A DNA stretch of 47,159 nucleotides, taken from assembly GCF_030160295.1 (NCBI RefSeq), contig NZ_BSOB01000022.1, forward strand, positions 1-47,159. Direction: 5' to 3'. The notes under the pieces were generated by a model that had not been told where the DNA came from, did not search any database, and was given only the letters and a program-made list of their open reading frames with translations. Made by a program: the position numbers and the translations under genes. How positions within the stretch are numbered: position 1 is the first letter of the stretch; each line of letters begins with the position of its first letter. The stretch is from Dyella acidisoli. GTDB taxonomy: Bacteria; Pseudomonadota; Gammaproteobacteria; Xanthomonadales; Rhodanobacteraceae. This document shows positions 25,533 through 46,938 of this stretch, one piece after another.

Positions 25533-25611
25533 CTCGGGATAACCCCAGTTTGCGGGCGTGGATTTCGGCCGTTAAATCCTTAGTCGAAAAATTATTCGAG
25601 TGAGGTGTGTC

Positions 25612-28868: not shown

Positions 28869-30359
28869 TCAGCTACCCCCACCGCCCGCATTCCACATAT
28901 ACCGTGGCGGCTGGCGACTCTGAAACTCGGCAAAATCCATACGCTTCGGGTAACGCACCGTGCCTGATGGACGCAAATCGCTGCGAGCACCATGCCAATA
29001 GCGGCAGCGGCGACTGCGAAGCCGGCGGCGGCGCCGCATCGCTGCAATCGCTGCACGCCGGCGGCGCCCCTGCTCGCGCTGCTCGTCGGTCTGCTCCACG
29101 TCCTCTGCGTTGCGCGGGCTAACACGCACCTCCTCCAAGCCAGCGCCAGTTCGCCGCGAGGTAACACGGTCTTCTTGCCCGATCGGATCGATACGCCGCA
29201 TACGATCGGCCGCCAACGAAAATTCCATGCTGCGCCCTGCCCCAAGATCAATCACCTTGGTGGTGCGCATCGTGGCCACCAGCGCTGCAATGGCCTGCGG
29301 ATCGATAAAGGATGGCCCCTGCGGTGAAGCCGTCGTGGCAGCGGAACTATCCGACTGCGCCAACAAAAGCGCCATGAGTTGCAACGTAAAAGGACGATTA
29401 TCGGCGGGCACCACCGTCGTGTTTTGGGTGACGACTGGCGGAACAAATTCCGTGCTGCGCGGAGGCACCACCCATGTCACCTGTACGGTCGGCCGGCTTC
29501 CATCGACCAACATGAGAGGCGGCGGTGGATTTAAAGGAGGATTACGTCCTCGACCCTGCTGGGTCTGAATGAAAGGTCTTTCGACCGGCGCGAAACTCAA
29601 GGGGCTTTCAGCAACGCTCCGCCCGTAGCCCGATGCAATAAGCGTGACGTTGCGGGGATCGATGTTGGACGCCTGCATCTCCGGTGCTGTTGCTGGCACG
29701 GGTGCCGGCACCGTTGTGGGTGCCGGCGTCGGCGTCGGCGTCAATATCAAGGTTGATGCCTGCGCCGAACTCGATGTCAGCGACAGCACGGACACGGACG
29801 TGATGGCGGCAGGCACATCGCGCGACTCGCTTACACCCGTCGCGAGCAAATGCGGGTCAACACTCACACGCCAACGATCTGTAGCCTCCTCGCTGCCTTG
29901 AGAAGCGAGTGGCGAATCCTGCTTCGGCGTGTTGTACATGTCCAAAGCCGCAGGCATCGACCGGAGCAATGGCGGCGCCATGTGCATGCCATCGTGGACC
30001 AGATGATCGAGATAACCCCCATGTGGAATGCTTGTCGTTGGCGATATACCCTGCGATGACGATGACGGCGATGACCCATAACTTCGGCCAAGCCCAGGAT
30101 CCAAACTGCGCATGATCTGGTTGATGTGGCCTTCGGGAAGACCGATCACCTGGCTGACCGTGAGCGGAGTATCCGCTTGCAGACCAGGGTTCACCGCAAG
30201 AATCGAATCAACGGGAACGTTCAGCGTGCTTGCCAGATCGGTCACCGTATTGCCCATGGAGAGCGGAAACAGAATCGTCACGCCGCTATCGTTCGACCCA
30301 AGCCCGGGCAGACCCAACGGATTGCCGCTGATGATCGCCTGCAATAGAGAATCAGACAT
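28869..30359 (-). CDS. LysM-domain protein, last gene of the sct operon
   Basis: 496 residues, function not recognised. A LysM-like module lies at about 27-75 (VTILFPLSMGNTVTDLASTL, VDSILAVNPGLQA, VSQVIGLPEG). Next come a Ser-rich linker, a Pro/Thr repeat segment (TPTPTPAPTTVPAP) at about 205-225, a structured-looking region with PFTLQLMALLLAQSD and ALVATMRTTKVIDLGAGR, and an Arg-rich tail (MRRRRRLRSRR). There is no signal peptide. The start at 30359 was chosen because it lies 11 bp after the sctP stop; the open frame extends upstream inside sctP and is not used. The position behind sctP suggests a secreted or assembly-linked component. Wall binding through LysM would suit passage of the apparatus through the peptidoglycan; this is inference. 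Confidence 0.75.
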   Translation of the reverse strand: MSDSLLQAIISGNPLGLPGLGSNDSGVTILFPLSMGNTVTDLASTLNVPVDSILAVNPGLQADTPLTVSQVIGLPEGHINQIMRSLDPGLGRSYGSSPSSSSQGISPTTSIPHGGYLDHLVHDGMHMAPPLLRSMPAALDMYNTPKQDSPLASQGSEEATDRWRVSVDPHLLATGVSESRDVPAAITSVSVLSLTSSSAQASTLILTPTPTPAPTTVPAPVPATAPEMQASNIDPRNVTLIASGYGRSVAESPLSFAPVERPFIQTQQGRGRNPPLNPPPPLMLVDGSRPTVQVTWVVPPRSTEFVPPVVTQNTTVVPADNRPFTLQLMALLLAQSDSSAATTASPQGPSFIDPQAIAALVATMRTTKVIDLGAGRSMEFSLAADRMRRIDPIGQEDRVTSRRTGAGLEEVRVSPRNAEDVEQTDEQREQGRRRRAAIAAMRRRRRLRSRRCRYWHGARSDLRPSGTVRYPKRMDFAEFQSRQPPRYMWNAGGGGS

Positions 30360-30370
30360 GGCCGACCCAA

Positions 30371-31132
30371 TCAGGCGAGCAACGTGGGCGTGATTTCCAA
30401 CGCGCCGAGCCTGCTTTGTGCGAAGCGCTCGATCAGCTGCGGCGCACCTTCGACCAAGCTGTGATAGGCCGCGCTGGAGCGAGTATCGGCGCGCAGCTTC
30501 CAGCCATCGCTGGTGCGGCTCAACCATAGCTCCGTGCCTGGCAACAGACCATCCTTCAACGTGATCATGATTTCGCGCGACTGCGCTGCGCTGTGGCTGC
30601 TTGCGTCGGGCACCAGCAGTTGCTTCACATGCCGCTCGATCAGCTCCGCCAAGGCTGGCGCCATGGCTGCCGAAGCGGCTGCAGGCTGCTCGGCGCTCTG
30701 CACTATCGCTTGTTGCGCCAGGTGCAAGGTTTGCATCCCCATGTTCGCCGCACCCTGCCCGTCGCCTCGATCATCATCTTGCTGCTCGCTGTTGTCGTCG
30801 CCCTTGCGTGGCGAAAGCAGGCTGAGCAACGGATCACCTTTTTCGTTCAACTGGCGTTGCAGCAAATCGCGCAAAGCCTGTTCCTGGTCCGGCGAAAATG
30901 CATGGGGTTCGACATCGGCAGTCTCGATATCAACAGCGCTCTCTTCGCCGAGGCTGCTATCCGGGGAACCATCCGGCACATCTTGTCGCTTGCCATTCAT
31001 CAAGGTGCGGAAGCGATTTACGTTTTCAGGATTGCCGGCTTGCGGGGTTTCGGCATGCGCCTCGCGCGTAGCGCGCCGCGTAGACAAGGCCGACGAATGG
31101 GATGATGGCGAAGTGGGCGGTTGTGTATGCAT
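30371..31132 (-). CDS. sctP: SctP: type III needle-length/substrate-switch protein
   Basis: 253 residues. The long, disordered, Ser/Asp/Gln-rich N-terminal half ends near AMAPALAELIERHVKQLLVP. A compact C-terminal domain follows (about 185-253: SREIMITLKDGLLPGTELWL, SRTSDGWKLRAD, LVEGAPQLIERF), which matches the HpaP/YscP/FliK-type C-terminus. In other systems this protein measures needle length and switches the export gate. GAGG of its ribosome site overlaps the sctO stop (TGAGGTCGCTATG). Position after sctN-sctO supports the call, since members of this family diverge strongly in sequence. Confidence 0.82.
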   Translation of the reverse strand: MHTQPPTSPSSHSSALSTRRATREAHAETPQAGNPENVNRFRTLMNGKRQDVPDGSPDSSLGEESAVDIETADVEPHAFSPDQEQALRDLLQRQLNEKGDPLLSLLSPRKGDDNSEQQDDDRGDGQGAANMGMQTLHLAQQAIVQSAEQPAAASAAMAPALAELIERHVKQLLVPDASSHSAAQSREIMITLKDGLLPGTELWLSRTSDGWKLRADTRSSAAYHSLVEGAPQLIERFAQSRLGALEITPTLLA

Positions 31133-32971: not shown

Positions 32972-33590
32972 GCCTCCCTCCGGTGGTTTTCTCTGCTGCG
33001 GCCAGGATCACCCTCGCCTGCTCAAGCTGTTCGTTGAAACCCGCACGCACGATGCCGCCTGCGGACTCGATGATGCAGTCGAAACGATCCAAGCCTGGAT
33101 CACCGATGATTTCAATGTCCGGCGCAGCGGCAGCACCCAATGCGGCCACCTCGCTGCGCGCCTGAGCGACGATATCGGGATGAATGCGCACCAGCAGATG
33201 GGGTTCGAACACCAGCTTTTGCATGGCTTCGGCAACCAGCGAGGCAACGATTCGCTCCGCACCGATAGCCGGTGCGATGTGTTTCACCACGCCGATGGCG
33301 ATGTCGCCTGCGCGCTTGCGCAGCTCCGCAGTGGCGGCTGCGCGCGCATCGATAAGCGCTTGCAATGCCTTGGCGCATTCTTGCAAACCGGCCTCGCGCC
33401 CTTCTATCAACCCTTCCCGCCGCGCTTGCGCAAAAATCTGTTCGCGCTCGATCTCGGCCTGGCGCAGCAATGCGTTGGCCTGTTCGATAATGCTTTGTGC
33501 TTCGCTAAGCGGGGTCCAGGCAGCCGCTGGAATCACGCCGGCTTTGACGTGCATCTGAAAGCGATCGCGATCAACAACCAGTGCGTTCAT
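32952..33590 (-). CDS. sctL: SctL: type III ATPase regulator (FliH/YscL family)
   Basis: 212 residues. A short N-terminal segment (MNALVVDRDRFQMHVKAGVI) is followed by a long helix (about 25-85: IIEQANALLRQAEIEREQIF, AQARREGLIEGREAGLQECA) with the Ala/Gln/Glu heptads typical of FliH/SctL stators. The globular C-terminal domain contains ERIVASLVAEAMQKLVFEPH and HPDIVAQARSEV. It dimerises, restrains SctN and links it to SctK/SctQ. The ATG overlaps the sctK stop by 4 bp (ATGA); GGAGG lies upstream. Confidence 0.92.
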   Translation of the reverse strand: MNALVVDRDRFQMHVKAGVIPAAAWTPLSEAQSIIEQANALLRQAEIEREQIFAQARREGLIEGREAGLQECAKALQALIDARAAATAELRKRAGDIAIGVVKHIAPAIGAERIVASLVAEAMQKLVFEPHLLVRIHPDIVAQARSEVAALGAAAAPDIEIIGDPGLDRFDCIIESAGGIVRAGFNEQLEQARVILAAAEKTTGGRRERTGV

Positions 33591-34279
33591 TCGATGGGCC
33601 CCTCCGCAGTCATGAGCTCGGTCGACGAATCGACGTCCAGCGCTTTCTGCTCAGCCAGAAGCATCGGTACGGTTGATGCGGGCAACCAACAGCTTCCCTT
33701 GCAGGAACCCGCGGACACTTCCGCATAAGCAAGCGCCAGTCGCGCTGCCAGGCTTTCATGCCGACGCTCGGCATAGCCGATGAACTCGATTTTCCCACGC
33801 TCAAGCACGGCGGTACTTAGCGCATGGGCATCACTGCCGCAGCGCTTCAGCACGGCCTCGCCCATATTGCGAATCGCTTCTGGCGCCGATTCCGATTCCG
33901 GCCATGGATTCGCACTCTGCGCATAGCGCCAGTTTTCGATGCCCAGCGCGTTGCGCACAAACAGCACGGCATTTCGTTCGACAATCATGCGCAATGCGGG
34001 GCCGAGGGCGATCGCACCCAATGTCTGGCTAAACGCCTGTATGCGTGATTGCGGCCATTGCAGCCATGGCTCGTCTTGCCAGCACTGCCAACGCTCATGA
34101 TCCGGCGCGAATACGCCCGGCACATATCGCACCGCTGCTCTTGCCAGATGACGTCGACCCGCGTTGGAAGACAGTGCCTGTTTCAGCAGCGGCTCTGGCA
34201 GATCTCCGAAACGCACCGGATGCAGGCCATCGAGCAACGCTCGCGCCTGTTGCTGGCGCACGCTGTAATCAACGTTCAT
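33587..34279 (-). CDS. sctK: SctK: sorting-platform adaptor
   Basis: 230 residues with family-typical features: an early LDGLHPVRFGDLPEPLLKQA, HLARAAVRYVPGVFAPDHE, and a helical C-terminus (VLERGKIEFIGYAERRHESL, AARLALAYAEV). SctK/YscK/OrgA proteins attach the SctQ-SctL-SctN platform to SctD. The ATG at 34279 was chosen because it overlaps the end of sctJ by 11 bp and begins the conserved region; the frame extends upstream without support. Presence of sctK between sctJ and sctL is a Ysc-type arrangement. Confidence 0.85.
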   Translation of the reverse strand: MNVDYSVRQQQARALLDGLHPVRFGDLPEPLLKQALSSNAGRRHLARAAVRYVPGVFAPDHERWQCWQDEPWLQWPQSRIQAFSQTLGAIALGPALRMIVERNAVLFVRNALGIENWRYAQSANPWPESESAPEAIRNMGEAVLKRCGSDAHALSTAVLERGKIEFIGYAERRHESLAARLALAYAEVSAGSCKGSCWLPASTVPMLLAEQKALDVDSSTELMTAEGPIE

Positions 34280-35054
34280 GAGACACGCTCGACCGAGCCA
34301 GTGAACGCGGCCGGCTGCCCAATAGCGCACCACGATTGCGCCACAGCAACGCGCAGGCAAGCAGAAGTACCAGCACTGCAAAACCGATCAGTGCCAGCGA
34401 AGTCATGTCGCCGCGCAAAACGCCCGTGGTCACGGCACCGGCTGGAAGCTCGGTGGGTGAGCGCTGGAAGAATTGCACGGTGACGCGGCTGGGGTCGGTC
34501 AGGCCGTCGGTGCCGTTCATCACGGCAGCCTTGATGTCCGGCGCACGGCTTTCGATACCGGCATTGGGACGCGCAATGATCACGACCGACGCAGAACCGC
34601 TCGGCGGCTTGTCATCGATCGGGCTCTTGTCGGGAATCGACAAATACACATAGGCATCCACCACGCCGTCGAACTGCCGCAAGGTATGACCAAGCTGCTG
34701 TTCGCGGGCGTAGATGAAACGTTGCTTATCTTCCAGCGGTGAGGAAACGAAACCGTCCTTCTTGAAGATCTGGCTGATGTTGTCGATGCTCTGGTGCGGC
34801 AAACCCGCATCGCGCAGCACGGCCACCGCAGCAGGCATGTCATGGCGATCCAACACAACTTGCCAACCGTCGCCGCGTTCGGTGGGACGTTTGTCTGCAT
34901 CGATGCTGTGATTGAGCAACGCGGCCACCACCTCGTTGGCCTGCTGTTCGTCGAGCTTGTTGTACAAAACCTCGCGCGAACAGCCGACCAGCAGCCCCAA
35001 TGCAAGCATCAGGGCTGCTACTCGCCACCTCTTTTCAATCGTCCATTTAGGCAT
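34269..35054 (-). CDS. sctJ: SctJ: inner-membrane ring lipoprotein
   Basis: 261 residues. A signal peptide with lipobox LVGC puts the lipidated Cys at residue 25. The two ring-building modules follow: SREVLYNKLDEQQANEVVAA, LPHQSIDNISQIFKKDGFVS, KQRFIYAREQQLGHTLRQFD, VVDAYVYLSIPDKSP, SVVIIARPNA. A C-terminal transmembrane helix (SLALIGFAVLVLLLACALLW) ends in a basic tail. It forms the inner MS-like ring with SctD. The ATG at 35054 has GAGG eight nt upstream; an upstream in-frame start would spoil the signal peptide. Confidence 0.96.
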   Translation of the reverse strand: MPKWTIEKRWRVAALMLALGLLVGCSREVLYNKLDEQQANEVVAALLNHSIDADKRPTERGDGWQVVLDRHDMPAAVAVLRDAGLPHQSIDNISQIFKKDGFVSSPLEDKQRFIYAREQQLGHTLRQFDGVVDAYVYLSIPDKSPIDDKPPSGSASVVIIARPNAGIESRAPDIKAAVMNGTDGLTDPSRVTVQFFQRSPTELPAGAVTTGVLRGDMTSLALIGFAVLVLLLACALLWRNRGALLGSRPRSLARSSVSHER

Positions 35055-35064
35055 CACGCCAACC

Positions 35065-35469
35065 TCAGGACTGCTGGCGGAACAATTGCTGCACGCCATC
35101 CGAACTGCGATTGGCGACGTTCGAGGTCAGCTCCGCCTGGAACACCATTTCCTGGCAACGCATCGTCATGTCGATGATCTGGCTTGGCGCCAGATCGCGA
35201 CCGCTGCTGCGCATGGTGTCCGCCAGCTTGCCAAGCTGAGCAGTACGACCGTTGAGCGAATCGAACTGGTTCAACACCGCCTTGACCGCTGCTGACAGCT
35301 CCTGCGGCACGGGTGCCACCTGCTCTGTCTGCGCAACATTCGCCGGTGCCGCGTCGGCGAGGGTTTGGCGGAACTTCGCGATGTCGTCGACATGTGCCGG
35401 CGCGGCTGCGGGGGATTGTGTCGCAGCAAAGTCGGCCACGTTGACCATTTGAGTCGGAAGCACGTTCAT
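35065..35469 (-). CDS. sctI: SctI: type III inner-rod protein
   Basis: 134 residues. An unstructured Ala/Pro-rich N-terminus is followed by helices (VPQELSAAVKAVLNQFDSLN) and a C-terminal helix QEMVFQAELTSNVANRSSDG ending QQLFRQQS, which is the conserved SctI/YscI/HrpB pattern. It forms the rod that joins the export gate to the needle. GGAG precedes the ATG at 35469. Position directly before sctJ is conserved in Ysc-type operons. Confidence 0.85.
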   Translation of the reverse strand: MNVLPTQMVNVADFAATQSPAAAPAHVDDIAKFRQTLADAAPANVAQTEQVAPVPQELSAAVKAVLNQFDSLNGRTAQLGKLADTMRSSGRDLAPSQIIDMTMRCQEMVFQAELTSNVANRSSDGVQQLFRQQS

Positions 35470-35495: not shown

Positions 35496-35870
35496 TTATC
35501 CCTGCTTCTGGCCCAGCGTGTTCAACGCCTGGCCTACGGCATTGGTCGAGGTCGATGCGCTGGTCGAGATGAACTGCATCTTCAGGCTCTCCGCCGTCAG
35601 TTGCGTCAGCACGGAAGGATTGTCCGAACCGCTGGTGGCACCGTTCTGGCCATCGGCGCTGGCATCGGAGCCATTGTTGATCTGGTCCGACAATGCGGTG
35701 ACTTTGTTGGCCTGCTGATCGAGCGCATTGCCCCATGCCTTGGCCATGGCTTCGAACCAGCTGTTGGATTGATCAGTGCTGACCGTCTGGCCTGCCGAGG
35801 CAGCGCCGTTTGAGATCATGGTGTTGGCGAACTGACTGCTACCGCTTGTGTTGATCGTGTTGTTGCTCAT
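35496..35870 (-). CDS. Small helical protein in the SctF (needle) position
   Basis: 124 residues, rich in Asn/Ser/Thr/Gln/Ala with no Cys or Pro-rich parts except a short linker. There are two amphipathic helices (SWFEAMAKAWGNALDQQANK; LTAESLKMQFISTSASTSTN) and a C-terminal helix AVGQALNTLGQKQG. Needle and filament subunits are small helical hairpins that polymerise through such a C-terminus. It sits between sctD and sctI, where Ysc operons encode SctF. It is longer than usual needles (about 80 residues) and could instead be an EspA-like filament subunit. AGGAGACG precedes the ATG. The call rests on position and composition. Confidence 0.6.
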   Translation of the reverse strand: MSNNTINTSGSSQFANTMISNGAASAGQTVSTDQSNSWFEAMAKAWGNALDQQANKVTALSDQINNGSDASADGQNGATSGSDNPSVLTQLTAESLKMQFISTSASTSTNAVGQALNTLGQKQG

Positions 35871-35966: not shown

Positions 35967-37280
35967 TCAACGACGATTCGGCACGGGAGCCTCCGCCGTT
36001 GCGCTGGGTTGTGCTGCGGGTTGCGCCACCACGCCCGGGGGAAGGCCAGGTGCGCTGCTGCTTGATGCTGCCGGTATCAAATGCGCCATGGCGACCGAAT
36101 CCATGTCGCCCAGTGGATGCGGCGTGACGTATTTATCGTCCTTGTTGAGCTGCATATAGGTGTTGTCCGGCATGCGGACCAAAATGTTGTCGTCGCTGGT
36201 GACACCGACCAGGATGCCGCCTTGCGGCAATGCGCTGCCCGGGTAGTAGCGCGACTCGTCGCGGGTCACCACGTAGCTGTTGGCACCACTGCTGACGTGA
36301 CGGATGAGCTTGCCTTCATCCAGTTTGGGTGGCTCGGGCTTGTGCTCGTCGTAATTACGCAGCGCCAGGCTGAGACCGACGTCATTATTGAGGCCTTGCA
36401 TATCAGTCGAACCAAGCACATCGCGCTTGACGCGTTCGGTGCTGTCCGCATCACCAAAGTGGCCATCGACCTCGATCAGTCCTTCATCCAGCAAGCGCGT
36501 TTCCACCGTGTAGCCATGCATGGCGAAAATATCTTTCACCTGCTTGGCGACACTCGGCCAATCGCGCACTTCCAGTTCCGTAGTCAGACCCGTCTCGGAA
36601 AGCTTCTGCTTGAGCTGGGGCAACTGAGCAACATTACCCACGACGCCACGCACGATCAGCCGATTGCCGTCGTCAACGATCGCCACGACATGCTGCAACG
36701 ACATCTGCCGCAGGATGCCTCGCGTCTGCTCCAACTGCTCGCCGACGGTGCGCAGATGAACCGGTGTAGGGTGTTTCACCTTCCAGCTTCCCACCAGAAT
36801 GAGCACAGCGAACATCAGCAACAAACCGACGATCGCCAAAACACCGCGCCGTCGACTGGCCAGCTGTTTGCTCGCCAGAGCGGCTTCGGCATGATCGGCG
36901 GAATCGGCAAGACTCAGCCAGCGCTCGCTCCAGTGCGGCCCCACGGCAAACTGCACCTTGCCAAGACGCACCATGGCGAAGTGTTCGAGCGTGATGTTCT
37001 CTCCCTCGGCAATTTGCCTTTCTTGCGCCTCGACATCACCGTTCAGCGCGCGCAGTAGCACCTGATCACCCACCACGGTGAGCACGCAGTGATGATCTTG
37101 AATATCCGCATCGCCAAGAATCAGATCGCAATCGTCCGCCTGACCGATCATCAGAATGCCGCGCTCAGGCAACCGGAATTCCGCTCCTGCGTGTACACCG
37201 CTGAAGACACGCAGGCGCAGCTGCACGCGCGGAGACGGCCGCTCCGCGTTATGAGTTCGATTGACGACTTGGCTGCTCAT
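35967..37280 (-). CDS. sctD: SctD: inner-membrane ring protein with FHA domain
   Basis: 437 residues. The N-terminal cytosolic FHA-like domain (about 20-112: LRLRVFSGVHAGAEFRLPER, GQADDCDLILGDADIQDHHC) would bind SctK. One transmembrane helix follows (about 145-166: GVLAIVGLLLMFAVLILVGS). The periplasmic part has repeated ring-building modules (LIVRGVVGNVAQLPQLKQKL, LIEVDGHFGDADSTERVKRD). A tail rich in Ala/Pro/Ser (about 405-437) is longer than in many relatives. Only 21 bp separate it from sctC. The ribosome site is weak. Confidence 0.9.
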   Translation of the reverse strand: MSSQVVNRTHNAERPSPRVQLRLRVFSGVHAGAEFRLPERGILMIGQADDCDLILGDADIQDHHCVLTVVGDQVLLRALNGDVEAQERQIAEGENITLEHFAMVRLGKVQFAVGPHWSERWLSLADSADHAEAALASKQLASRRRGVLAIVGLLLMFAVLILVGSWKVKHPTPVHLRTVGEQLEQTRGILRQMSLQHVVAIVDDGNRLIVRGVVGNVAQLPQLKQKLSETGLTTELEVRDWPSVAKQVKDIFAMHGYTVETRLLDEGLIEVDGHFGDADSTERVKRDVLGSTDMQGLNNDVGLSLALRNYDEHKPEPPKLDEGKLIRHVSSGANSYVVTRDESRYYPGSALPQGGILVGVTSDDNILVRMPDNTYMQLNKDDKYVTPHPLGDMDSVAMAHLIPAASSSSAPGLPPGVVAQPAAQPSATAEAPVPNRR

Positions 37281-37301: not shown

Positions 37302-39302
37302 TCAACGAATACTTGGCACCGTACTTGGGATTGGGGCTGCCTTTACCGGGGGCTGCGGTGGAATCGGTGACGCAGAAGGTTGCGGCTGGGAGGCGGGAGC
37401 CGGATTGTCAAAACGCAACAATCCCCGCTGCTTTGCCTGCTGGTCATCGATCTGTTGCTGCGACTCGATGGTGACTTTCGGTGTGCTCGGCGTCTGCTGG
37501 CCAGTGATCTGGTTGAGCGCGATGAGGCGTGGCGTGATCAGGAACAAGCGCTCGGTGTGCGCCCTCTGCTTCTGCACCGTCTTGAACAGATAACCCAGCA
37601 CCGGGATATTGCCGAGCACCGGGATCTTCTGATCGCTGTTAACGCCCTTATCCTGGATCAGGCCACCAAGCAGAAGGCCCTGGCCGTCCTCGATCACCGC
37701 CTGCGTATTCACGGCGTTGTTGGCGACGATAGGGTACGACACGTTCTGCGAATCCGCGGCCGAGAATGTGATGCTGCCATCGTCGATCTGCACCATCATG
37801 CGGATCTTTAGCACACCATTCTCTGAAACCAGATGCGGCGTCACGCGCAGGGTGGTGCCGGCCACGACGTTGTACAAATCGGAGTTGTAAGCGCCCGATA
37901 CCGGCACGTAAACGGTCTGGTTGCTCTGGATCACCGCCTCGGTGTCGTTCATGGTGATCACTTGCGGGCGCGTCACCACATGCGTGATGTTGTCCGTCTC
38001 CAGCGCATCCACATTCGCAATGAAATGTGCCGGGTCACCCAGGATGGCGCCGATCTGTCCACCGCCACCGAACAGGCTGGCCAGTGCGGACAAAGCGGAA
38101 CCGTTTTTCCCACCTAGCAGTGCGCCGGCCAGCGCCGCCTTGGACTGGTCTGCATTGAGCGTAGAGCTGTTGTTGGTGGTGAACCCGGTAGTGATACCTC
38201 GGTTTCGATAGAACCAGTTGACGCCGAGCGAACGTGCCCTCTCCTTGTCCACATCGATGATGGTCGCCTCGATCTCGACCATCTGTGGCGCAACGTCGAG
38301 GTTGCGGATCAGCTCGTCATACATCGGCATGCGATCGGCGGTATCGCGCACAATGATCGCGTTGCGAAAGGTGTCAGCAACGATGCGACTGTCGCCCTCG
38401 CCGTGTACGGCCTGCACGTTATTCTGCGGCTGCGGCGTGGAGGCTGAATCATCCGACGCAGTGCCGTTGTCCTCGTTGTTCTGCACCGGCACCGTGTAGT
38501 TGCCCAGCGGCGGCGGTGGCTGCTGGCCCATGCCGGCCAGGCCCTGGCCGCGCAGGCCTTGTTGACGCGCGGAGACCAACCGCTCACGTACACCACCGAA
38601 TTGATCGCCGCCCGGAGCACCCACCAACTGACGCAGCACCGTCGCCACGCCAGGAATGGTGACCTGGCGATTGCCGATCATCATCGTCGTATCCGACGCC
38701 CAGGCGTATTTCAGCGGATAGAACTTGAAGCGAGTGCTCGCATTCTGACCAAGACCGGAGATGGTCTGCGCCATCTGCTTCACCTGGTCAGTGAATCGCT
38801 TGGTGCCGGTGATCATCACCAGGCCTGTGCTCGGCTCCAGCCGCCAGACATTGCCGCTGGCGGCGTCGGCCCAGTTCACGCTGGCCATGGCAGCCAGGAA
38901 TTGCTGCTCCACCGGCAGCGGCACGCTGGTGTAATCCGTCTCCCGTTCGGTGTTGAGATATACGTAGACGGCCGAACCATCCCAGTACGCCAGCAGTCCG
39001 TTGCTATCGGCAATCTTGCGCCACACCTGTGCATAGCTGCCTTTGAAATTGCCATTGAGCGTGCCGGAACGTGCCGCCACCTGCTGGCTCATGACCACTT
39101 CCAAACCCTGGTCATGGAAGAAATCCGGCAGAAACTCGTGCAGCGTCTTGTCGCTCTGAATTTCGACCATGCCTTTCTTGAACGGGATCGATGCCGCTTG
39201 CGTCAGTGTCGCGCACAGCATCAAACCCACGAGCAGCAGCGAACCTCCGATCCGTCGGCCGAGTCCCGCACGCCATCCACCCCTGCTTTTCTTCCGCATC
39301 AT
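37302..39302 (-). CDS. sctC: SctC: outer-membrane secretin
   Basis: A 666-residue secretin of the type III family. A basic N-terminus and signal peptide (GGSLLLVGLMLCATLTQAAS) lead to N0/N1-type domains (MVEIQSDKTLHEFLPDFFHD, YAQVWRKIADSNGLLAYWDG), an N-domain with Gln/Gly/Pro-rich insertion (about 255-300), and then the secretin core (MVEIEATIIDVDKERARSLG, VVTRPQVITMNDTEAVIQSN, VPVSGAYNSDLYNV, IPVLGNIPVLGYLFK, RLFLITPRLIAL). The C-terminal Pro/Gln tail may bind a pilotin; no pilotin gene was seen. Two ATGs start the frame (39302, 39299). Confidence 0.96.
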   Translation of the reverse strand: MMRKKSRGGWRAGLGRRIGGSLLLVGLMLCATLTQAASIPFKKGMVEIQSDKTLHEFLPDFFHDQGLEVVMSQQVAARSGTLNGNFKGSYAQVWRKIADSNGLLAYWDGSAVYVYLNTERETDYTSVPLPVEQQFLAAMASVNWADAASGNVWRLEPSTGLVMITGTKRFTDQVKQMAQTISGLGQNASTRFKFYPLKYAWASDTTMMIGNRQVTIPGVATVLRQLVGAPGGDQFGGVRERLVSARQQGLRGQGLAGMGQQPPPPLGNYTVPVQNNEDNGTASDDSASTPQPQNNVQAVHGEGDSRIVADTFRNAIIVRDTADRMPMYDELIRNLDVAPQMVEIEATIIDVDKERARSLGVNWFYRNRGITTGFTTNNSSTLNADQSKAALAGALLGGKNGSALSALASLFGGGGQIGAILGDPAHFIANVDALETDNITHVVTRPQVITMNDTEAVIQSNQTVYVPVSGAYNSDLYNVVAGTTLRVTPHLVSENGVLKIRMMVQIDDGSITFSAADSQNVSYPIVANNAVNTQAVIEDGQGLLLGGLIQDKGVNSDQKIPVLGNIPVLGYLFKTVQKQRAHTERLFLITPRLIALNQITGQQTPSTPKVTIESQQQIDDQQAKQRGLLRFDNPAPASQPQPSASPIPPQPPVKAAPIPSTVPSIR

Positions 39303-39337: not shown

Positions 39338-41404
39338 TCAAACAGCGAGTTGTCCAACCGGCACCAGCCGCAGATCAGGCACCAGTTCCTGGTAAGAAAG
39401 CACGGGAATATCGGCGTACTCCGCCTCGGTAAGCTTGCGCAGGTGGCGTCGCACATCGGTCGAACTCAGCATCACCATCGAGCCGCCGTGGTCGCCGCGG
39501 CTGTAGTCGCCGATTTGCACCAGCAATCGCGCCGCAAGATCCGGTTCGACTGCCAACTGCGTGCCCGCCGGACCGTTATGCACGGAACGTCGCAAACGCT
39601 CCTCCAATTCAGGTCGCGCCACCAGCACGCGCAATACATGATCATCGTCGGCGTAGCGGTAGCTGATATGGCGGCGCAACGACACACGCACGTATTCGGC
39701 CACCAGCACGATGTCTTTCTCGCGACTGGCCGCATCGGTAATCGCCTCGAACACGTCGCGCAACTGACGGATCGGCACACGCTCCTCGACCAGCCGCTTG
39801 AGTACGTCCGCGACACGCTGTGGCGACACTACGCGCAGCATCTCGCGCACCAGGTCGGGGTAGTCGCGGCTCAAACCGTTGGACAGATTGGACGTCTCCT
39901 GGATACCGACGAAAAGCGACAGATGCCGCTCCAGCGCGAGGCGGATGTGCTCGCGCAGCACCTGCGGTGGTTCGAGCACGCGCGCGCCATGATGACTGTC
40001 GCGCGCCACCCATCGGCCGGGAAATCCGGTAACGCCCTCGGTCGCCACTGCGCCGTCGCTTTGACTTTGCGCCGGCAACGCAGCACGCCCAGGTAAAAAC
40101 ACCGATTCCGACTTCAGGATGCCGGAACCGATGCGCACCCCGTACGCATAGAGTGCATAACCGTGATCAGGAAGGTTCAGCCCCGCTCGCAACGCGGGCT
40201 TCGGCAACGGCACGCCATATTCCTCGCGCAGGCTGCCAACCACCTGCCGGAACAGATTGCGCACCTGATTACTGCCCAGTGCCTGCAACGCCGACATATT
40301 CACTTCAAGCAGTAATGCTGGCGGCGGCATCAGTGCGTCGGTGTCGGCCACATCCGGCGGTAGCAGTTCGGCCTGGCTTTCCGGCACCTTGAACACCTTG
40401 CGTAGAAAGCCGACGCGTTCACGCATGCGCCATGACGCAACCCCCACCAAGATCACACCAATCGGAAGGAATACGACGATCGGAAAACCCGGCACCAGCA
40501 TCATGCCCAGCGCGATGCAGCCAACGATCATCATTACGCGGGGTTCACCCGATATCTGTCTGGCGATGATCGCGCCGAGATTGCGGTCTTCTTCATCACC
40601 GGCGGTGCGCGTTACGATCAAGCCGGCGGATATCGATGCAAGCAAGGCGGGAATCTGGGCCACCAGGCCATCGCCGATGGTAAGCACGCTATATGTATGC
40701 ACGGCATCGTCCATGCTCATGCCATGCATCATCACGCCCACGCCGAGACCGCCCAGCAAGTTGATCACGATGATCACCATGCCGGCGATCGCATCGCCCT
40801 TGACGAATTTCATCGCGCCGTCGAGCGATCCATGCAGCTGGCTTTCCACTTCCAGCAAGCGCCGGCGTCGACGCGCCTCGTCCTTCTCCAGCAGGCCCGA
40901 GCGCAAGTCCGAATCGATCGACAGCTGCTTGCCGGGCATGGCGTCGAGCGAGAAGCGCGCCGCCACTTCGGCAACGCGCTCGGCACCCTTGGCGACGACG
41001 ATGAATTGCACCACCGTGATGATCAAGAACACCACCAAGCCGACAATCAAATTGCCGCCGACCACCATGTTGCCGAACGTATCGATGATGTGGCCGCCAT
41101 CCGCATTAAGAAGAATCGATCGCGTGATCGCAATCGACAACGCCAGGCGAAACAGCGTGGTCAGCAGAAGCACGCTGGGAAAACTGGAAAACGCCACCGG
41201 CGCCGGGATATAGATAGCGACGAGCAGCAAGCCCACGCCAATAAGCATGTTCAAGGCGACCAGTGCGTCGATGGCGACCATGGGCAGCGGCAGGATCATC
41301 AAACCGATGATCGCCACGACCCCGGCCACTAGAACCAGGTCGCTATAGCTGCGCGAACCACCCGTATTCGAGCCAAGTCGCGAAAGGATCGACTCGAAGG
41401 CCAT
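39338..41404 (-). CDS. sctV: SctV: export-gate protein (FHIPEP family)
   Basis: A 688-residue major export-gate component. The N-terminal half has about eight membrane helices (SDLVLVAGVVAIIGLMILPL, IVGLVVFLIITVVQFIVVAK) and the conserved FHIPEP loop (VAEVAARFSLDAMPGKQLSI, DSDLRSGLLEKDEARRRRRL). The C-terminal cytosolic domain (about 355-688) forms the nonameric substrate ring. The ATG at 41404 was chosen (GAGGG ten nt upstream); the frame upstream to 41467 has no support. It heads the long minus-strand sct operon. A 403-bp gap separates it from the FliO-like gene upstream. Confidence 0.96.
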   Translation of the reverse strand: MAFESILSRLGSNTGGSRSYSDLVLVAGVVAIIGLMILPLPMVAIDALVALNMLIGVGLLLVAIYIPAPVAFSSFPSVLLLTTLFRLALSIAITRSILLNADGGHIIDTFGNMVVGGNLIVGLVVFLIITVVQFIVVAKGAERVAEVAARFSLDAMPGKQLSIDSDLRSGLLEKDEARRRRRLLEVESQLHGSLDGAMKFVKGDAIAGMVIIVINLLGGLGVGVMMHGMSMDDAVHTYSVLTIGDGLVAQIPALLASISAGLIVTRTAGDEEDRNLGAIIARQISGEPRVMMIVGCIALGMMLVPGFPIVVFLPIGVILVGVASWRMRERVGFLRKVFKVPESQAELLPPDVADTDALMPPPALLLEVNMSALQALGSNQVRNLFRQVVGSLREEYGVPLPKPALRAGLNLPDHGYALYAYGVRIGSGILKSESVFLPGRAALPAQSQSDGAVATEGVTGFPGRWVARDSHHGARVLEPPQVLREHIRLALERHLSLFVGIQETSNLSNGLSRDYPDLVREMLRVVSPQRVADVLKRLVEERVPIRQLRDVFEAITDAASREKDIVLVAEYVRVSLRRHISYRYADDDHVLRVLVARPELEERLRRSVHNGPAGTQLAVEPDLAARLLVQIGDYSRGDHGGSMVMLSSTDVRRHLRKLTEAEYADIPVLSYQELVPDLRLVPVGQLAV

Positions 41405-41807
41405 TAGCTGGGAACCCTCGGATCCCTGACGATCCCTTTGACATGACGTGCGCACCCCGCTCGCCAATATGGCGGCGCGCTGGTGTCGCTACGAAATGAA
41501 CCATGGATGGCCAGCACGTACGGCTCCGACAAGCAAGAAAGCATAAATAGAGCGGCATTCGCCACTCGAATCCTTGCCGTTGCCAACGCTCCAAAACAGC
41601 GATACGCATGGCCGATGCCCCCTGTCGGCAATCGGTTCTGAGCGAACGTACCAGCGTTTCCAAAAATCGAAACCTGGGGGAGACCCTAGGTTTTGCATTA
41701 ATGAAGATGAAGAGAAAATGTCGGTGACACATTCTTCTTAAAATTGCCTAGCGCATCGCAATTCAAGCGTGAGGATTGTCGCGTTTGAAATCATCACAAA
41801 AAATTCA
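41405..41807. promoter_or_regulatory. Long leader upstream of sctV with an AAACCT/AGGTTT dyad
   Basis: This 403-bp gap in the minus-strand operon contains no convincing gene. At 41670-41693, AAACCTGGGGGAGACCCTAGGT followed by TT forms an imperfect stem (AAACCTGGG with CCC-T-AGGTTT). Its CCCTAGG core recalls the repeats at 25494-25532. An AT-rich stretch at 41690-41760 could contain a promoter for sctV, but I cannot assign -35/-10 boxes with confidence. Confidence 0.35.
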
Positions 41808-42155
41808 TCATGGTGGTGTCGTCGTGTCCATCGCACGTAATTCGGCCAATAGCTCGATCTTGCTCGGTGTCACACCGAGCATAAATCTGCGCCCCTGTGC
41901 ATCGAGCACCACAACGCGCTCACGCGCGCCCACAGCCACCGCCTGGACCACTTTCATGGGACCGTTGCCGCTAAGCGCCCTGCCGCGTCGTAGCCACCAC
42001 AGCATGGCAAGTAACGCGGCTGTCACAGCAATCAACGGCACTAACAGGCCTAATAACGGGCTTAATGATGACCCGCCGCCTTCTGGAGCATTCGCAGCAA
42101 ATGCTGCACTTGGCCAAAGTAGGACAACAAGCACATTGCATATCAATTTCTTCAT
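41808..42155 (-). CDS. FliO/MopB-family protein in the injectisome locus
   Basis: 115 residues. A signal peptide (LICNVLVVLLWPSAAFA) is followed by a short Gly/Ser periplasmic stretch, one membrane helix (31-55, LLGLLVPLIAVTAALLAMLW), a basic stop and a small cytosolic domain with the FliO hallmark VGARERVVVLDAQGRRFMLG followed by VTPSKIELLAEL (75-106). FliO helps assemble the FliP/FliR export gate and is normally confined to flagellar systems. Here it precedes sctV on the same strand and is divergent from the HK-RR-sctQRST operon, with no flagellar gene nearby. The start at 42155 was set by the signal peptide; the frame extends upstream to 42341. The domain call is good; its role in this system is inferred. 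Confidence 0.8.
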   Translation of the reverse strand: MKKLICNVLVVLLWPSAAFAANAPEGGGSSLSPLLGLLVPLIAVTAALLAMLWWLRRGRALSGNGPMKVVQAVAVGARERVVVLDAQGRRFMLGVTPSKIELLAELRAMDTTTPP

Positions 42156-42476: not shown

Positions 42477-43568
42477 ATGCCAGTAGCGCGAATCGACCGC
42501 AAAACAAGCCACACGGAGCATGCAGCTGACCTAGGAGAACACGGATATGCGCTGATCGATGCGCTGCCATGGCCGTGCATTGTATTTGGCCACGAAGCTG
42601 ACACAGCGCTTACGTGCAACGCCGCATTCCGTGCCGAGTTTCCCAAACTCGCTGCCACGCCAACGCGAGATGCTTTTGAAACTGCGTTTGAGAAAGCGGG
42701 CGAACAGGGGCGCGCGCGCATCTACTACGCACCGGACACACGTCGTTGGTATCGCGTGGAACATAGCGAACTTGCGCTTGGCGATCACACCGATGCGTTG
42801 TTTCTTACGAACATGAGTGATTGCATCGAGGTACTTCGCCGGCACCGCGAACAGCACGAGCAACTGCTTTCCACATCGCGCATGATGAGCGTAGGTGAAA
42901 TGGCCACCACGCTGGCGCACGAACTCAATCAACCGCTTTCGGCCGCCATCAATTACCTTGCGAGCTGCGAGCAAATGACCGGCGACGAACCGGAACATAC
43001 CCGCCTTCGTCAAGGCATTCACTTGGCGAAACGTCAAACCGAACGCGCTGCGCAGATCATCGGAAGCATCCGGGAATTCGTCCGCAGCCGCGAACCGCAT
43101 CGGCAGAATCTGAGCGCGCGCACACTGATCCAAGGCGTTATCGAACTATTGCGCCTGGAGGCCGAGCAGTATCAGGTGCTGATCGTCAGCACGGTGCCGG
43201 ACGATCTTCCGCCCATTTTTGCTGATCACGTAATGATCGAGCAGGTGCTGCTGAACCTCATAAAGAACGCGATCGAGGCTATGCACGGGACGCCACCTTC
43301 GCGTCGGCGCATCCAGTTGACCGCGCGACTCGATTGCGACGACATGGTGGAAATACGCGTCATCGATCAAGGCTGCGGCATCGATGAGAACGGCATGCGC
43401 AAGCTTTTCACGCCGATGTACACCACCAAGCCCGATGGCCTGGGTATCGGCCTGGCGATCTGCCGCTCGATCATCGAATACCACGAAGGCCGCTTGTTTG
43501 CCGAACCCAACCCCGACAATGGGCAAGGCTCCGCGCTGGTATTCACCGTGCCGCGAGGGTTGGCTTGA
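42477..43568 (+). CDS. Soluble PAS-type sensor histidine kinase in the type III operon
   Basis: 363 residues without membrane segments. A PAS-like sensor region (about 25-125: LIDALPWPCIVFGHEADTAL, RRWYRVEHSELALGDHTDAL) is followed by a FixL-class kinase core. The H-box is TLAHELNQPLSAAINYL, the N-box VLLNLIKNAIEAMHG, and the ATP-lid boxes DQGCGIDENGM, TTKPDGLGIGLAIC and GSALVFTVP. It should autophosphorylate on the His of AHELNQ and pass phosphate to the next gene product, whose ATG overlaps its stop (TGATG). Its signal is unknown; no haem-binding His pattern was checked. Confidence 0.92.
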   Translation: MPVARIDRKTSHTEHAADLGEHGYALIDALPWPCIVFGHEADTALTCNAAFRAEFPKLAATPTRDAFETAFEKAGEQGRARIYYAPDTRRWYRVEHSELALGDHTDALFLTNMSDCIEVLRRHREQHEQLLSTSRMMSVGEMATTLAHELNQPLSAAINYLASCEQMTGDEPEHTRLRQGIHLAKRQTERAAQIIGSIREFVRSREPHRQNLSARTLIQGVIELLRLEAEQYQVLIVSTVPDDLPPIFADHVMIEQVLLNLIKNAIEAMHGTPPSRRRIQLTARLDCDDMVEIRVIDQGCGIDENGMRKLFTPMYTTKPDGLGIGLAICRSIIEYHEGRLFAEPNPDNGQGSALVFTVPRGLA

Positions 43569-44164
43569 TGACCACCGCGCTCGACACGCGTGTCTACGTT
43601 GTGGATGACCATCAGGAGTTTCGTCAGTCCTGCGTCTGGATTCTTGAGCAAGCCAACTTTCAGGTGCGCGATTTCGCGAGCGCCCTGGCTCTGCTGAAAG
43701 AATTTTCGCGAGAGACGCCGCCGGCACGAAGTTGCATCGTCAGCGATATCCGCATGCCGGGCATGACCGGCCTTGAGTTGCAAAGTGAACTGTCGCATCG
43801 CGGTGTGTCGATACCGCTGATTTTTGTCACCGGTCACGGGGATGTCCCTTTGGCGGTGGATGCCATGCGTCACGGCGCTGCCAACTTCATCGAAAAGCCG
43901 TTTGATGCGCCGCTATTGATCGACGCCATCCATACTGCGCTGGCCAATCACGCACCGCAGACGGCGTCTCCCGCACTGACCAAACTCACACGCCGCGAAC
44001 GGCAGGTGCTGGACGGCATCATGAGCGGCAAGCTCAATAAGGTCATTGCCGACGAACTGAGCATCAGCCCGAAGACCGTCGAGCTGCATCGCTCCAACTT
44101 GATGGCCAAGCTGGGAGCTCACAACGTGGTCGAGCTTACCCGCGTAGTGCTGGGTCAAAACTAG
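43568..44164 (+). CDS. FixJ-family response regulator of the type III operon
   Basis: 198 residues. The receiver domain has acidic VVDDHQEF, phospho-acceptor D60 in IVSDIRMPGMTG, T in IFVTGHGDV and K in NFIEKPFD. The LuxR-type helix-turn-helix (about 137-195) has LTRRERQVLDGIMSGKLNKV and ISPKTVELHRSNLMAKLG. FixJ/TodT-like regulators bind DNA when phosphorylated. Its ATG overlaps the kinase stop by one base, and its stop abuts the sctQ ATG, so kinase, regulator and sctQ are tightly coupled. It is a likely regulator of the two sct operons and the LysM gene. Confidence 0.93.
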   Translation: MTTALDTRVYVVDDHQEFRQSCVWILEQANFQVRDFASALALLKEFSRETPPARSCIVSDIRMPGMTGLELQSELSHRGVSIPLIFVTGHGDVPLAVDAMRHGAANFIEKPFDAPLLIDAIHTALANHAPQTASPALTKLTRRERQVLDGIMSGKLNKVIADELSISPKTVELHRSNLMAKLGAHNVVELTRVVLGQN

Positions 44165-45187
44165 ATGCTGCGCGAAACGACGCTCCTGATGGATCACGCT
44201 CCCATCCCTGGCGATACCAGCGAGGCGTTGCGCGAAGCTGCCCGTGCGTTATTGGCGCGCGGCAACACGCTGCTGCAGAGTGTTCATGGCACGCTGGAAT
44301 TACGTGCCGGCGTTGGTCATCAGGGCCACGCCGCCGCCCTTCCCTGCGTCGCTCTCGACAGTGCGCAAGGTCGACTGCGGGTTGCGCTGGAACGCGAGCA
44401 GGTGGCGAGCCCACTAGGCGACGCGCATTGGCAAGACTATGCGGGAGAAGCGCGCTTGCTCGCCTGGTCGTTGGCGCACGAGTTGATGCTCAACGCGCTC
44501 GGTCACGTGTTTGGCGGCGGCTTTGTGGCCACCGGTTTCCTGCCTGCCTGCACGGATGTGGAATGCCTGTGGTTGGTGCTGAGCTGGCGTGACGAAAATG
44601 ATCAGTGGCTGCAAGGCTGGCTTGGGCTCGGTCCGACCGAAGCCCGCCAGCTGACTGCATCTGCCGATTGGAAGCGCGATCCAGCGAAACTCGCCATGCT
44701 CGGCGATGCGGCAATGCTCACGCTCGACCTGGCACTGCAAGGCGCCGCGCTGGATTCGGCGACCGTTTCAGAGTTGGCGTTGGGTGATGTGTTGCTCGTC
44801 AGTGATGGCGCGGATTGCAACGCGCGCTTGCAGCCGGATCAGGACACTTCCCGTCGCATGTTTGGCCTTCCCAGTGGTTGGGCTGTGCAACGACGGCAGG
44901 GGCAATGGACGATCGCTGCCAAGCCGCTGTTGTCGACAGCTGTCGATGCCCATCGCCCCCAATTCCGGCTGACCCAGCTCAGCCTCAGTCCCGAAGAAGC
45001 CGGTGCATTGCAGCCCGGTAGCGTGCTGAGTTACGACACAGCACTGCTCGGCAACACGGTCGACATTGTCCTTGGCGGACATCGCTTTGGCGATGGCGTA
45101 CTGGTTGCATTGGGCGAATGGCTGGGCGTGCGCATTACGCATAAGGACCCCATGTATAACAAGGGCTCTACTCGTGGATTTCAGTAG
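44165..45187 (+). CDS. sctQ: SctQ: cytosolic C-ring / sorting-platform protein
   Basis: 340 residues. The N-terminal two-thirds is divergent (LAWSLAHELMLNALGHVFGG, LWLVLSWRDENDQWLQGWLG). The C-terminal SpoA/FliN domain is clear (about 285-332: LQPGSVLSYDTALLGNTVDI, GVLVALGEWLGVRITH). SctQ forms the pods that hold SctL-SctN and sort substrates. The ATG at 44165 directly follows the regulator's stop; an ATG at 44189 is an alternative. sctR begins inside its 3' end in another frame. Confidence 0.88.
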   Translation: MLRETTLLMDHAPIPGDTSEALREAARALLARGNTLLQSVHGTLELRAGVGHQGHAAALPCVALDSAQGRLRVALEREQVASPLGDAHWQDYAGEARLLAWSLAHELMLNALGHVFGGGFVATGFLPACTDVECLWLVLSWRDENDQWLQGWLGLGPTEARQLTASADWKRDPAKLAMLGDAAMLTLDLALQGAALDSATVSELALGDVLLVSDGADCNARLQPDQDTSRRMFGLPSGWAVQRRQGQWTIAAKPLLSTAVDAHRPQFRLTQLSLSPEEAGALQPGSVLSYDTALLGNTVDIVLGGHRFGDGVLVALGEWLGVRITHKDPMYNKGSTRGFQ

Positions 45188-45839
45188 TTTTTCGCCCGCA
45201 CTCATCATTACTGTCGTTGTCGCACTGGCGTTGGCGCCGTTCGTGGCCGTGATGGTCACTTCGTTCACCAAGATCGTGGTGGTGCTGAGCCTGTTGCGCA
45301 ACGCGCTGGGGCTGCAACAGGTGCCGCCTAATGTCGTGCTCAACGGTTTGGCCATCATTCTCTCGGTCTACGTGATGAACCCAGTCATCACAGACACCTA
45401 TCGCAGCGTGCAGTCGCAGATAAGCACACAAGCGCCTGGGCCGATGAACCTGGACAAGCTGGGCATGATGGTGCAAGTAGGCAAGGAACCGCTTCGCCAG
45501 TTCCTGATCAAGCATAGTCACCAGGTCGAACGCGATTTTTTTCTGCAAAGCGCGAAGCGGTTGCTTCCACCGGATCGGCAGAGCGACCTGACTTCCAACG
45601 ACTATCTGGTGATCATGCCCGCGTTCACCGTCAGTGAGTTGACCGAAGCATTCCAGATCGGCTTTTTGCTGTTTCTGCCATTCCTGGTGATCGATCTGGT
45701 GGTGTCCAACATCTTGTTGGCGATGGGCATGATGATGCTGTCGCCCACCATGGTTTCACTGCCCTTCAAGCTGTTGCTATTCATCTTGCTCAGCGGCTGG
45801 GCGAAGTTGATCCATGGTCTTGTGCTCACCTATCAGTAA
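45174..45839 (+). CDS. sctR: SctR: export-gate membrane protein (FliP family)
   Basis: 221 residues with four membrane helices. Family signatures are FVAVMVTSFTKIVVVLSLLR NALG-type (residues about 20-44), QQVPPNVVLNGLAIILS, and the C-terminal LVIMPAFTVSELTEAFQIGF followed by LPFLVIDLVVSNILLAMGMM. Five copies build the gate core with SctS and SctT. The start is the GTG at 45174 with AGGG eight nt upstream, 14 bp before the sctQ stop; a longer frame to 45066 overlaps sctQ and is not supported. The hairpin CTTAAA/TTTAAG (45843-45859) follows its stop. Confidence 0.94.
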   Translation: MDFSSFSPALIITVVVALALAPFVAVMVTSFTKIVVVLSLLRNALGLQQVPPNVVLNGLAIILSVYVMNPVITDTYRSVQSQISTQAPGPMNLDKLGMMVQVGKEPLRQFLIKHSHQVERDFFLQSAKRLLPPDRQSDLTSNDYLVIMPAFTVSELTEAFQIGFLLFLPFLVIDLVVSNILLAMGMMMLSPTMVSLPFKLLLFILLSGWAKLIHGLVLTYQ

Positions 45840-45868: not shown

Positions 45869-46135
45869 ATGTACGATCAAGAAATTCAGCTTGCACGCGA
45901 GGCACTATGGCTGGTGCTGGCGTTGTCTGCACCGCCTATTTTTGCCGCGGCCATTGCGGGTCTCATCGTCGCCTTTCTGCAGGCGGCCACCCAGATACAG
46001 GAGCAAACGTTTCCCTATGCAGTGAAGTTCATGGTGGTGGTGCTCGCCCTGCTGGGGACGGCAGCGATGCTTGGCGGCACGCTGTTCAAATTTGCCGATC
46101 GCCTGTTCACCGATTTTCCCGGCATGCTGCGCTGA
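45869..46135 (+). CDS. sctS: SctS: export-gate membrane protein (FliQ family)
   Basis: 88 residues with two membrane helices: ALWLVLALSAPPIFAAAIAG LIVAFLQAATQ-type N-terminal hairpin with QIQEQTFPYAVK, then FMVVVLALLGTAAMLGGTLF. This is the standard size and pattern of SctS/FliQ. GAGGCGGCGC precedes the ATG. It lies between sctR and sctT as in most type III operons. Confidence 0.95.
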   Translation: MYDQEIQLAREALWLVLALSAPPIFAAAIAGLIVAFLQAATQIQEQTFPYAVKFMVVVLALLGTAAMLGGTLFKFADRLFTDFPGMLR

Positions 46136-46146
46136 CGGCACCACGG

Positions 46147-46938
46147 ATGGCTCCCTTTTCGATTGACTATCTCGGCAATCAGCTCAATGGGATCGCGCTG
46201 ACCTTGCCGCGCATCGTCGCGGCCTTTCTGGTGCTGCCGCTGATGACATCGGATACGGTGCCGGCCTTGGTGCGCAACAGCTTCTATGTGAGCCTTGCGA
46301 TCCTGGTTTATCCGCTGGCAGCTGCAGCCAGCCCGAGCACCTCAATCATGACGGGCGCCACCTGGGTGCTGGTGCTGGGCAAAGAGGTATTCATCGGTCT
46401 GCTGATCGGCTTTTGTTTCGGCACGGTGTTCTGGGCTTTGGGCGCGGCCGGCAGCGTGATCGACACCAAGGTCGGCTCATCGATGTCGATGGAGATGGAT
46501 CCGATTGCCGGCCAGCAGACCACCATTACCGGTGCATTCCTGATGCAGTTGGCCACCTGGCTGTTCATGGTCAGTGGCGCGTTCATGGTGTTTCTCGACC
46601 TGTTGATGTCGAGCTATACGATCTGGCCTGTGGCAAGTCTGCTGCCGCCATTGCGCCCTGGCGGGATGGAATTCTTCGTCGGGCAATTCAACTATCTGAT
46701 GACCGCCGTATTGGTGTTTTCGGCCCCTGCGCTGGTGGTGATGTCGCTGGTCGATATCGCCTTGGGCTTGGTTAATCGTTACGCGCAACAACTGAATGTG
46801 TTTTCGTTGGCGATGCCGATCAAGTCGTGGCTGTCGAGCTGGGTGTTGTTGTTGGCGCTTGGCGCGATGATCGAGGTGGTCATGCGGAAGTTGTATGAGA
46901 ATCGCAGTTTGTTGGTGATGCTGAAGCAGATTTTATAG
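46147..46938 (+). CDS. sctT: SctT: export-gate membrane protein (FliR family)
   Basis: 263 residues, about six membrane helices. SctT signatures include ALTLPRIVAAFLVLPLMTSD, LGKEVFIGLLIGFCFGTVFW, AAGSVIDTKVGSSMSMEMDP and QQTTITGAFLMQLATWLFMV. The C-terminal helices include FSLAMPIKSWLSSWVLLLAL. It caps the SctR-S core. The ATG at 46147 lies 11 bp after the sctS stop; the frame extends upstream through sctS in another reading and is not real there. sctU usually follows this gene, but here the coding region ends and a dispersed repeat begins. Confidence 0.95.
   Translation: MAPFSIDYLGNQLNGIALTLPRIVAAFLVLPLMTSDTVPALVRNSFYVSLAILVYPLAAAASPSTSIMTGATWVLVLGKEVFIGLLIGFCFGTVFWALGAAGSVIDTKVGSSMSMEMDPIAGQQTTITGAFLMQLATWLFMVSGAFMVFLDLLMSSYTIWPVASLLPPLRPGGMEFFVGQFNYLMTAVLVFSAPALVVMSLVDIALGLVNRYAQQLNVFSLAMPIKSWLSSWVLLLALGAMIEVVMRKLYENRSLLVMLKQIL

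Follow-up and report, generated by a model that had tools for sequence, protein, structure and literature searches.

A FliO-type gene upstream of sctV in a non-flagellar type III secretion locus of Dyella acidisoli, and its one-to-one link with a type III secretion clade

The window studied here is a whole stretch of 47,159 nucleotides from the soil bacterium Dyella acidisoli. It contains a locus for a type III secretion system (T3SS), the genes of which are listed in Table 1. In this single locus SctV, SctC, SctD, SctJ and SctR all score over their NCBIfam cut-offs, and the original prediction that the system is non-flagellar is thereby borne out. That prediction had also named a secretin, SctD, SctJ and SctK among the neighbours. 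The first three are over cut-off, but the ORF called SctK has neither an NCBIfam match at E <= 1 nor a Pfam match at E <= 0.01, and only its position speaks for the name. Further, the HpaP (SctP) protein of the locus is over the Pfam cut-off, unlike the SctI candidate.

Table 1. Position, strand and basis of assignment for the features of the T3SS locus in the window.
Feature	Position	Strand	Basis
fliO-type gene of non-flagellar T3SS, 115 aa	41808..42155	(-)	Pfam PF04347 and NCBIfam TIGR03500 over cut-offs; homologue at the same place in 22/29 SctV-bearing genomes of the sampled order
Palindrome AACCTAGGG-N4-CCCTAGGTT, one mismatch in the window	41671..41692	(.)	Lies in the fliO-sctV gap
sctV, export apparatus	39338..41404	(-)	TIGR01399 730.8 bits, cut-off 692.25; start set at the MAFES methionine by inspection
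sctC secretin	37302..39302	(-)	TIGR02516 336.6 bits, cut-off 238.45
sctD	35967..37280	(-)	TIGR02500 97.5 bits, cut-off 86
sctJ	34269..35099	(-)	TIGR02544 168.6 bits, cut-off 161.95
ORF called SctK	33587-34381		SctK by position only
Sensor histidine kinase, divergent neighbour	42477..43568	(+)	Pfam HisKA, HATPase_c
FixJ-like response regulator	43565..44164	(+)	Pfam Response_reg, GerE; NF006900 FixJ 216.9 bits, below cut-off 255
sctQ	44165..45187	(+)	Pfam FliMN_C 26.9 bits, cut-off 23.8; TIGR02551 41.9 bits, below cut-off 100.8
sctR	45174..45839	(+)	TIGR01102 258.1 bits, cut-off 208.6; likely GTG start by comparison with relatives
sctS	45869..46135	(+)	Position: kept after sctR in relatives
sctT	46147..46938	(+)	Position: kept after sctS in relatives

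A few other genes of the region deserve mention. Between sctD and sctI lies a protein of about 120 residues without a Pfam match (window 35496-35870, minus strand). It is a candidate needle subunit, and a counterpart is kept in those loci of the window type that were read. The T3SS operon is flanked by a protein of 1027 residues with an N-terminal LysM domain (25600-28683, plus strand) and by an ORF with a sub-threshold LysM match (28869-30527, minus strand).

The fliO reading frame starts with ATG. Its product matches the Pfam family PF04347 (FliO) with an E-value of 4.4e-13 and 49.6 bits, against a cut-off of 22, and the NCBIfam family TIGR03500 with 55.4 bits, which exceeds the cut-off of 55.25 by a margin of 0.15 bits only. 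Both curated cut-offs are thus passed, and the identification as FliO, originally made from motifs that are indeed present in the protein, holds. According to a hydropathy scan alone, the N-terminus is short, hydrophobic and signal-peptide-like, ending in AFA (windows starting at 3-5); further on, the windows that start at 28-38 mark a single, strongly hydrophobic segment. The domain at the C-terminus is short. In an alignment the core domain and a GxRE(R/K) region are common to flagellar and T3SS FliO. A PDB sequence search with the protein gave chance matches only.

The flagellar FliO of Salmonella is similar in that it, too, fits the profile of the FliO domain and combines a single main hydrophobic stretch with a C-terminal domain of small size, as described in passages of PMC5542435. 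The flagellar subgroup of the family is defined by a place in a flagellar operon, usually beside fliP. In contrast, the window gene is flanked by the injectisome gene sctV and by a histidine kinase, and its product belongs to a separate branch from flagellar FliO in a tree that holds no Salmonella sequence.

The gene had been placed directly upstream of sctV and divergent from sctQRST. Upstream it is, but about 400 bp separate the two genes, and on the other side the histidine kinase and the FixJ-like response regulator intervene before sctQRST.

The gap contains the palindrome of Table 1. We find it in the fliO-sctV gap of 12 of the 14 Rhodanobacteraceae FliO loci, ten of them exact to a degenerate pattern, while the window and D. 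subtropica carry near-matches. We did not detect it in L033 and L034, nor in any of the nine loci of f2, a second family of the order and by inference Xanthomonadaceae. In the own genome the pattern occurs at a single place, but a reversed control pattern also occurs there, twice per strand, so it is the conservation of the palindrome and not its rarity that counts as evidence. Its reading as an RNA hairpin is weak (z -1.31), and a role as operator or terminator is unproven. With some 400 bp and a conserved palindrome between fliO and sctV, co-transcription of the two is therefore not assured.

How general is this arrangement? In a sample of 398 genomes of the order, the own genome included, SctV is over cut-off in 29. 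The original prediction had proposed to survey whether the pairing recurs in relatives, and it does: with a profile of ten T3SS FliO, a FliO gene is found upstream of sctV and on the same strand in 22 of the 29 genomes, with none at that place in the other seven. In the 22 linked genomes the FliO and SctV profile matches are 350-519 bp apart. The two groups also differ in their SctV scores, a split that was noticed afterwards: 710-759 bits in the FliO-linked genomes and at least 786 in the seven without. In the order as sampled, every locus of this T3SS type carries FliO (22/22). A common layout, FliO-SctV-(SctC)-SctD with a divergent kinase-regulator-SctQRST, is seen in nine neighbour loci and in thirteen more.

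In named genomes a single-sequence search returned no relative. A subsequent alignment search found ten named loci, in Dyella, Frateuria, Dokdonella and one unclassified member of Rhodanobacteraceae, and the SctV is of this type in all ten. Plasmid records contained no match to the window FliO, nor any SctV with more than 60% identity. On three rhizobial plasmids, short ORFs immediately upstream of sctV were considered as possible FliO and rejected; TPR families matched them weakly or clearly, and FliO did not.

Two further observations concern the occurrence of SctV in the order. A passage of PMC11928319 has T3SS restricted to Xanthomonas within Xanthomonadales, whereas many of the genomes with SctV over cut-off here are Rhodanobacteraceae. 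Further, a genome that shares the genus label of the window has, at G015:C37:16177-18183, a match of SctV/FlhA type that stays under the T3SS cut-off and contains one in-frame TAG.

The comparison with other T3SS loci gives a sharp separation. With two local FliO profiles, the nearby FliO of the 22 linked loci scores at least 62 bits, and the best chance match in 47 other T3SS loci reaches 6.7. These 47 represent 42 distinct places, five being seen twice, and 41 are testable: among the 38 other loci checked, G465 alone lacks 1 kb of upstream sequence, as its contig ends inside or at SctV and there is no upstream side to judge. At none of the 41 testable places is there a FliO within 1.5 kb. 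In addition, Pfam FliO has no match on the contig of SctV up to 60 kb away from it in any of 34 genomes, namely 27 SctV-bearing ones from the class and phylum samples and the seven mentioned above. Judging by these other places without FliO, the protein is not a general requirement for the assembly of SctR. Passages of PMC12403147 report FliO-bearing T3SS in further orders, which lie outside our samples, and none of those systems was found here.

That most T3SS do without FliO would also suit a vestigial gene that is merely carried along with the operon. However, the reading frame is intact, the gene is kept in every one of the 22 loci, and dN/dS is low. Among five Dyella FliO it ranges from 0.087 to 0.161 in nine of ten pairs, values that are approximate with dS mostly above 1 (saturated), and the tenth pair is not computable. 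We therefore regard a vestigial gene as hardly credible.

Next, we compared the T3SS FliO with their flagellar relatives, a comparison the original prediction had called for. In a FliO tree of 54 rows and 106 columns, a short alignment for which the program cautions about the low number of columns and the long branches, 23 T3SS FliO lie on one side of a branch and 31 flagellar FliO on the other (support 100/99). The flagellar FliO of the same genomes also fall outside the T3SS group. The T3SS FliO is thus a lineage of its own.

For SctV, a tree of 68 rows made by a quick method places all 19 FliO-linked SctV that were included in one clade with support 100, within the non-flagellar side. The best tree nests this clade among other non-flagellar SctV, with weak support for the surrounding forks. 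A topology in which the 40 other non-flagellar SctV form one group, sister to the FliO-linked SctV, is not rejected either (p-AU 0.40, 67 rows), and the data are therefore compatible both with ancestral retention of FliO and with one gain. The distances in FliO and SctV are strongly correlated over 19 genomes (r 0.934, with none of 9999 permutations as high), also within f1 (n 10, r 0.974) and within f2 (n 9, r 0.791). The FliO-SctV pairing of the T3SS is old and stable among relatives.

A recent capture of a flagellar fliO by the T3SS locus had been offered as one explanation, and the gene could also be a flagellar one that is out of place yet continues to serve the flagellum. A donor is at hand: the own genome has two FlhA over cut-off and, of its three FliO matches over cut-off, two besides the window gene. 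We read this genome as having two flagella plus an injectisome, each with a FliO. Flagellar loci, however, carry their own FliO beside FliP, and seven of the 22 FliO-linked genomes keep the T3SS FliO although SctV itself is their only match to the FlhA profile. These seven have no second FliO over cut-off; one of them, G348, has two FliO matches below it. In 15 of the 22 a second FliO match (E <= 0.01) clearly distinct from the T3SS place is present, not counting a weak match in a 1583-residue frame of G306. Together with the tree, in which none of the 31 flagellar FliO (same-genome copies included) joins the T3SS group, the agreement between FliO and SctV and the constant linkage, this retention without FlhA leaves recent capture unsupported. 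The capture or misplacement reading is already largely contradicted, and we consider it very improbable. In contrast, the other explanation first offered, a dedicated SctR/S/T assembly factor, finds partial support: that the protein is dedicated to the T3SS fits the survey, in which the linkage is complete, the lineage lies apart from flagellar FliO and seven genomes have no flagellar FlhA.

The second flagellar-type locus of the own genome, L025 (G000:C10), has a very divergent FliO upstream of a FliP-like gene. It scores 24.4 bits against the cut-off of 22 and has a branch of 4.9 in the FliO tree, where it is unreliably placed.

Within the FliO-linked clade, the f2 branch differs in two respects. 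First, none of the nine f2 genomes has a T3SS-type secretin over cut-off anywhere in the genome, while all five f1 genomes tested have one. The window SctC as query also finds no match in 20 kb of each of the nine f2 loci (L134-L142). Weaker secretin-profile matches of up to 141.6 bits (cut-off 238.45) occur elsewhere in the f2 genomes and may be pilus or type II secretins. Second, the SctR match in the nine f2 loci is split, with 90-115 residues separating its two parts: a Pro/Ala-rich insertion of about that length sits in the loop between the SctR halves in all nine, and in none of the 11 f1 SctR that were aligned. Our literature searches found no report of a secretin-less T3SS in Xanthomonadaceae.

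In textbook accounts FliO is specific to the flagellum, and the original prediction started from the premise that injectisomes lack it. This premise is out of date. FliO has been reported, as passages of the survey state, in non-flagellar T3SS of Myxococcota and of six Pseudomonadota orders including Xanthomonadales (Andrianova et al., PNAS 2025, PMC12403147), and the general phenomenon is therefore not new here. In the same order that survey describes Luteimonas huabeiensis and L. arsenica as having, like the window, a FliO-domain protein in a non-flagellar T3SS operon, a likeness that we draw from description and not from sequence. Some of its Xanthomonadales genomes have the T3SS copy of FliO only, as do some of ours. 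Dyella is not named in its main text, though the window gene may be listed in its supplementary dataset. We found no other paper on point in a literature search for FliO with Xanthomonadales.

The survey is general, and the passages available contain no clade, co-inheritance or secretin analysis. What we add is the one-to-one link of FliO with one T3SS clade, and a branch of this clade in which the SctR loop is enlarged and no secretin of the T3SS type exceeds the cut-off.

The needleless T3SS* of Myxococcus xanthus is also a non-flagellar T3SS reported with FliO in passages of PMC12403147. According to the available text of PMC10433427 and PMC3459982 it has no secretin; the f2 relatives seem similar, by description, whereas the window locus differs in having an sctC secretin over cut-off. 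One could imagine that FliO has been in non-flagellar T3SS since their flagellar origin, kept by the Xanthomonadales clade as by Myxococcota and lost by other injectisomes. The f2 branch would then represent a stage between flagellum and injectisome that has survived, and the secretin would have been gained or retained in the Dyella branch alone. We consider this scenario speculative and rather doubtful.

What, then, does the protein do? It is a FliO family member conserved in its position, co-inherited with SctV and separate from flagellar FliO. We think it probable that it belongs to its non-flagellar T3SS and serves as the system's own export-gate assembly factor. A chaperone action with SctR as partner may be inferred from Salmonella, where FliO protects and stabilises FliP, promotes a stable FliP-FliR core and is absent from the finished basal body, as described in passages of Fabiani et al. 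2017 (PMC5542435). By analogy, the window FliO would span the membrane with a single helix and carry a small domain in the cytosol. It would bind and protect newly made SctR, the FliP homologue, and promote formation of an SctR-SctT core. It would then leave before SctS, SctU, SctV and the SctJ/SctD rings complete the machine.

Several points count against a role at the export gate: fliO adjoins sctV and not sctR, its co-transcription with sctV is not assured, the C-terminal domain is short, the TIGR03500 cut-off is passed by a narrow margin, and other T3SS assemble their SctR without FliO. The target might be SctV or SctU rather than SctR: the FliO of Campylobacter jejuni acts mainly on the stability of FlhB and has little effect on FliP, according to a passage of PMC12403147. 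More broadly, the protein could have changed its function within the FliO family and have no part in SctR assembly; it might, for instance, stabilise SctV or SctU or influence the adjacent two-component system. The Campylobacter example would fit, as would the fact that sctV and the histidine kinase are neighbours of the gene in every locus read. However, the core domain and the GxRE(R/K) region of flagellar FliO are kept, and no domain points to signalling, which makes a shifted role a fairly unlikely, if reasonable, alternative.

An injectisome clade with its own FliO offers a direct test of how FliO acts on the gate proteins in cells that lack a flagellum. The same clade allows us to ask why most injectisomes manage without FliO, and its f2 branch, in which no secretin was detected, bears on how T3SS recruited their secretins.
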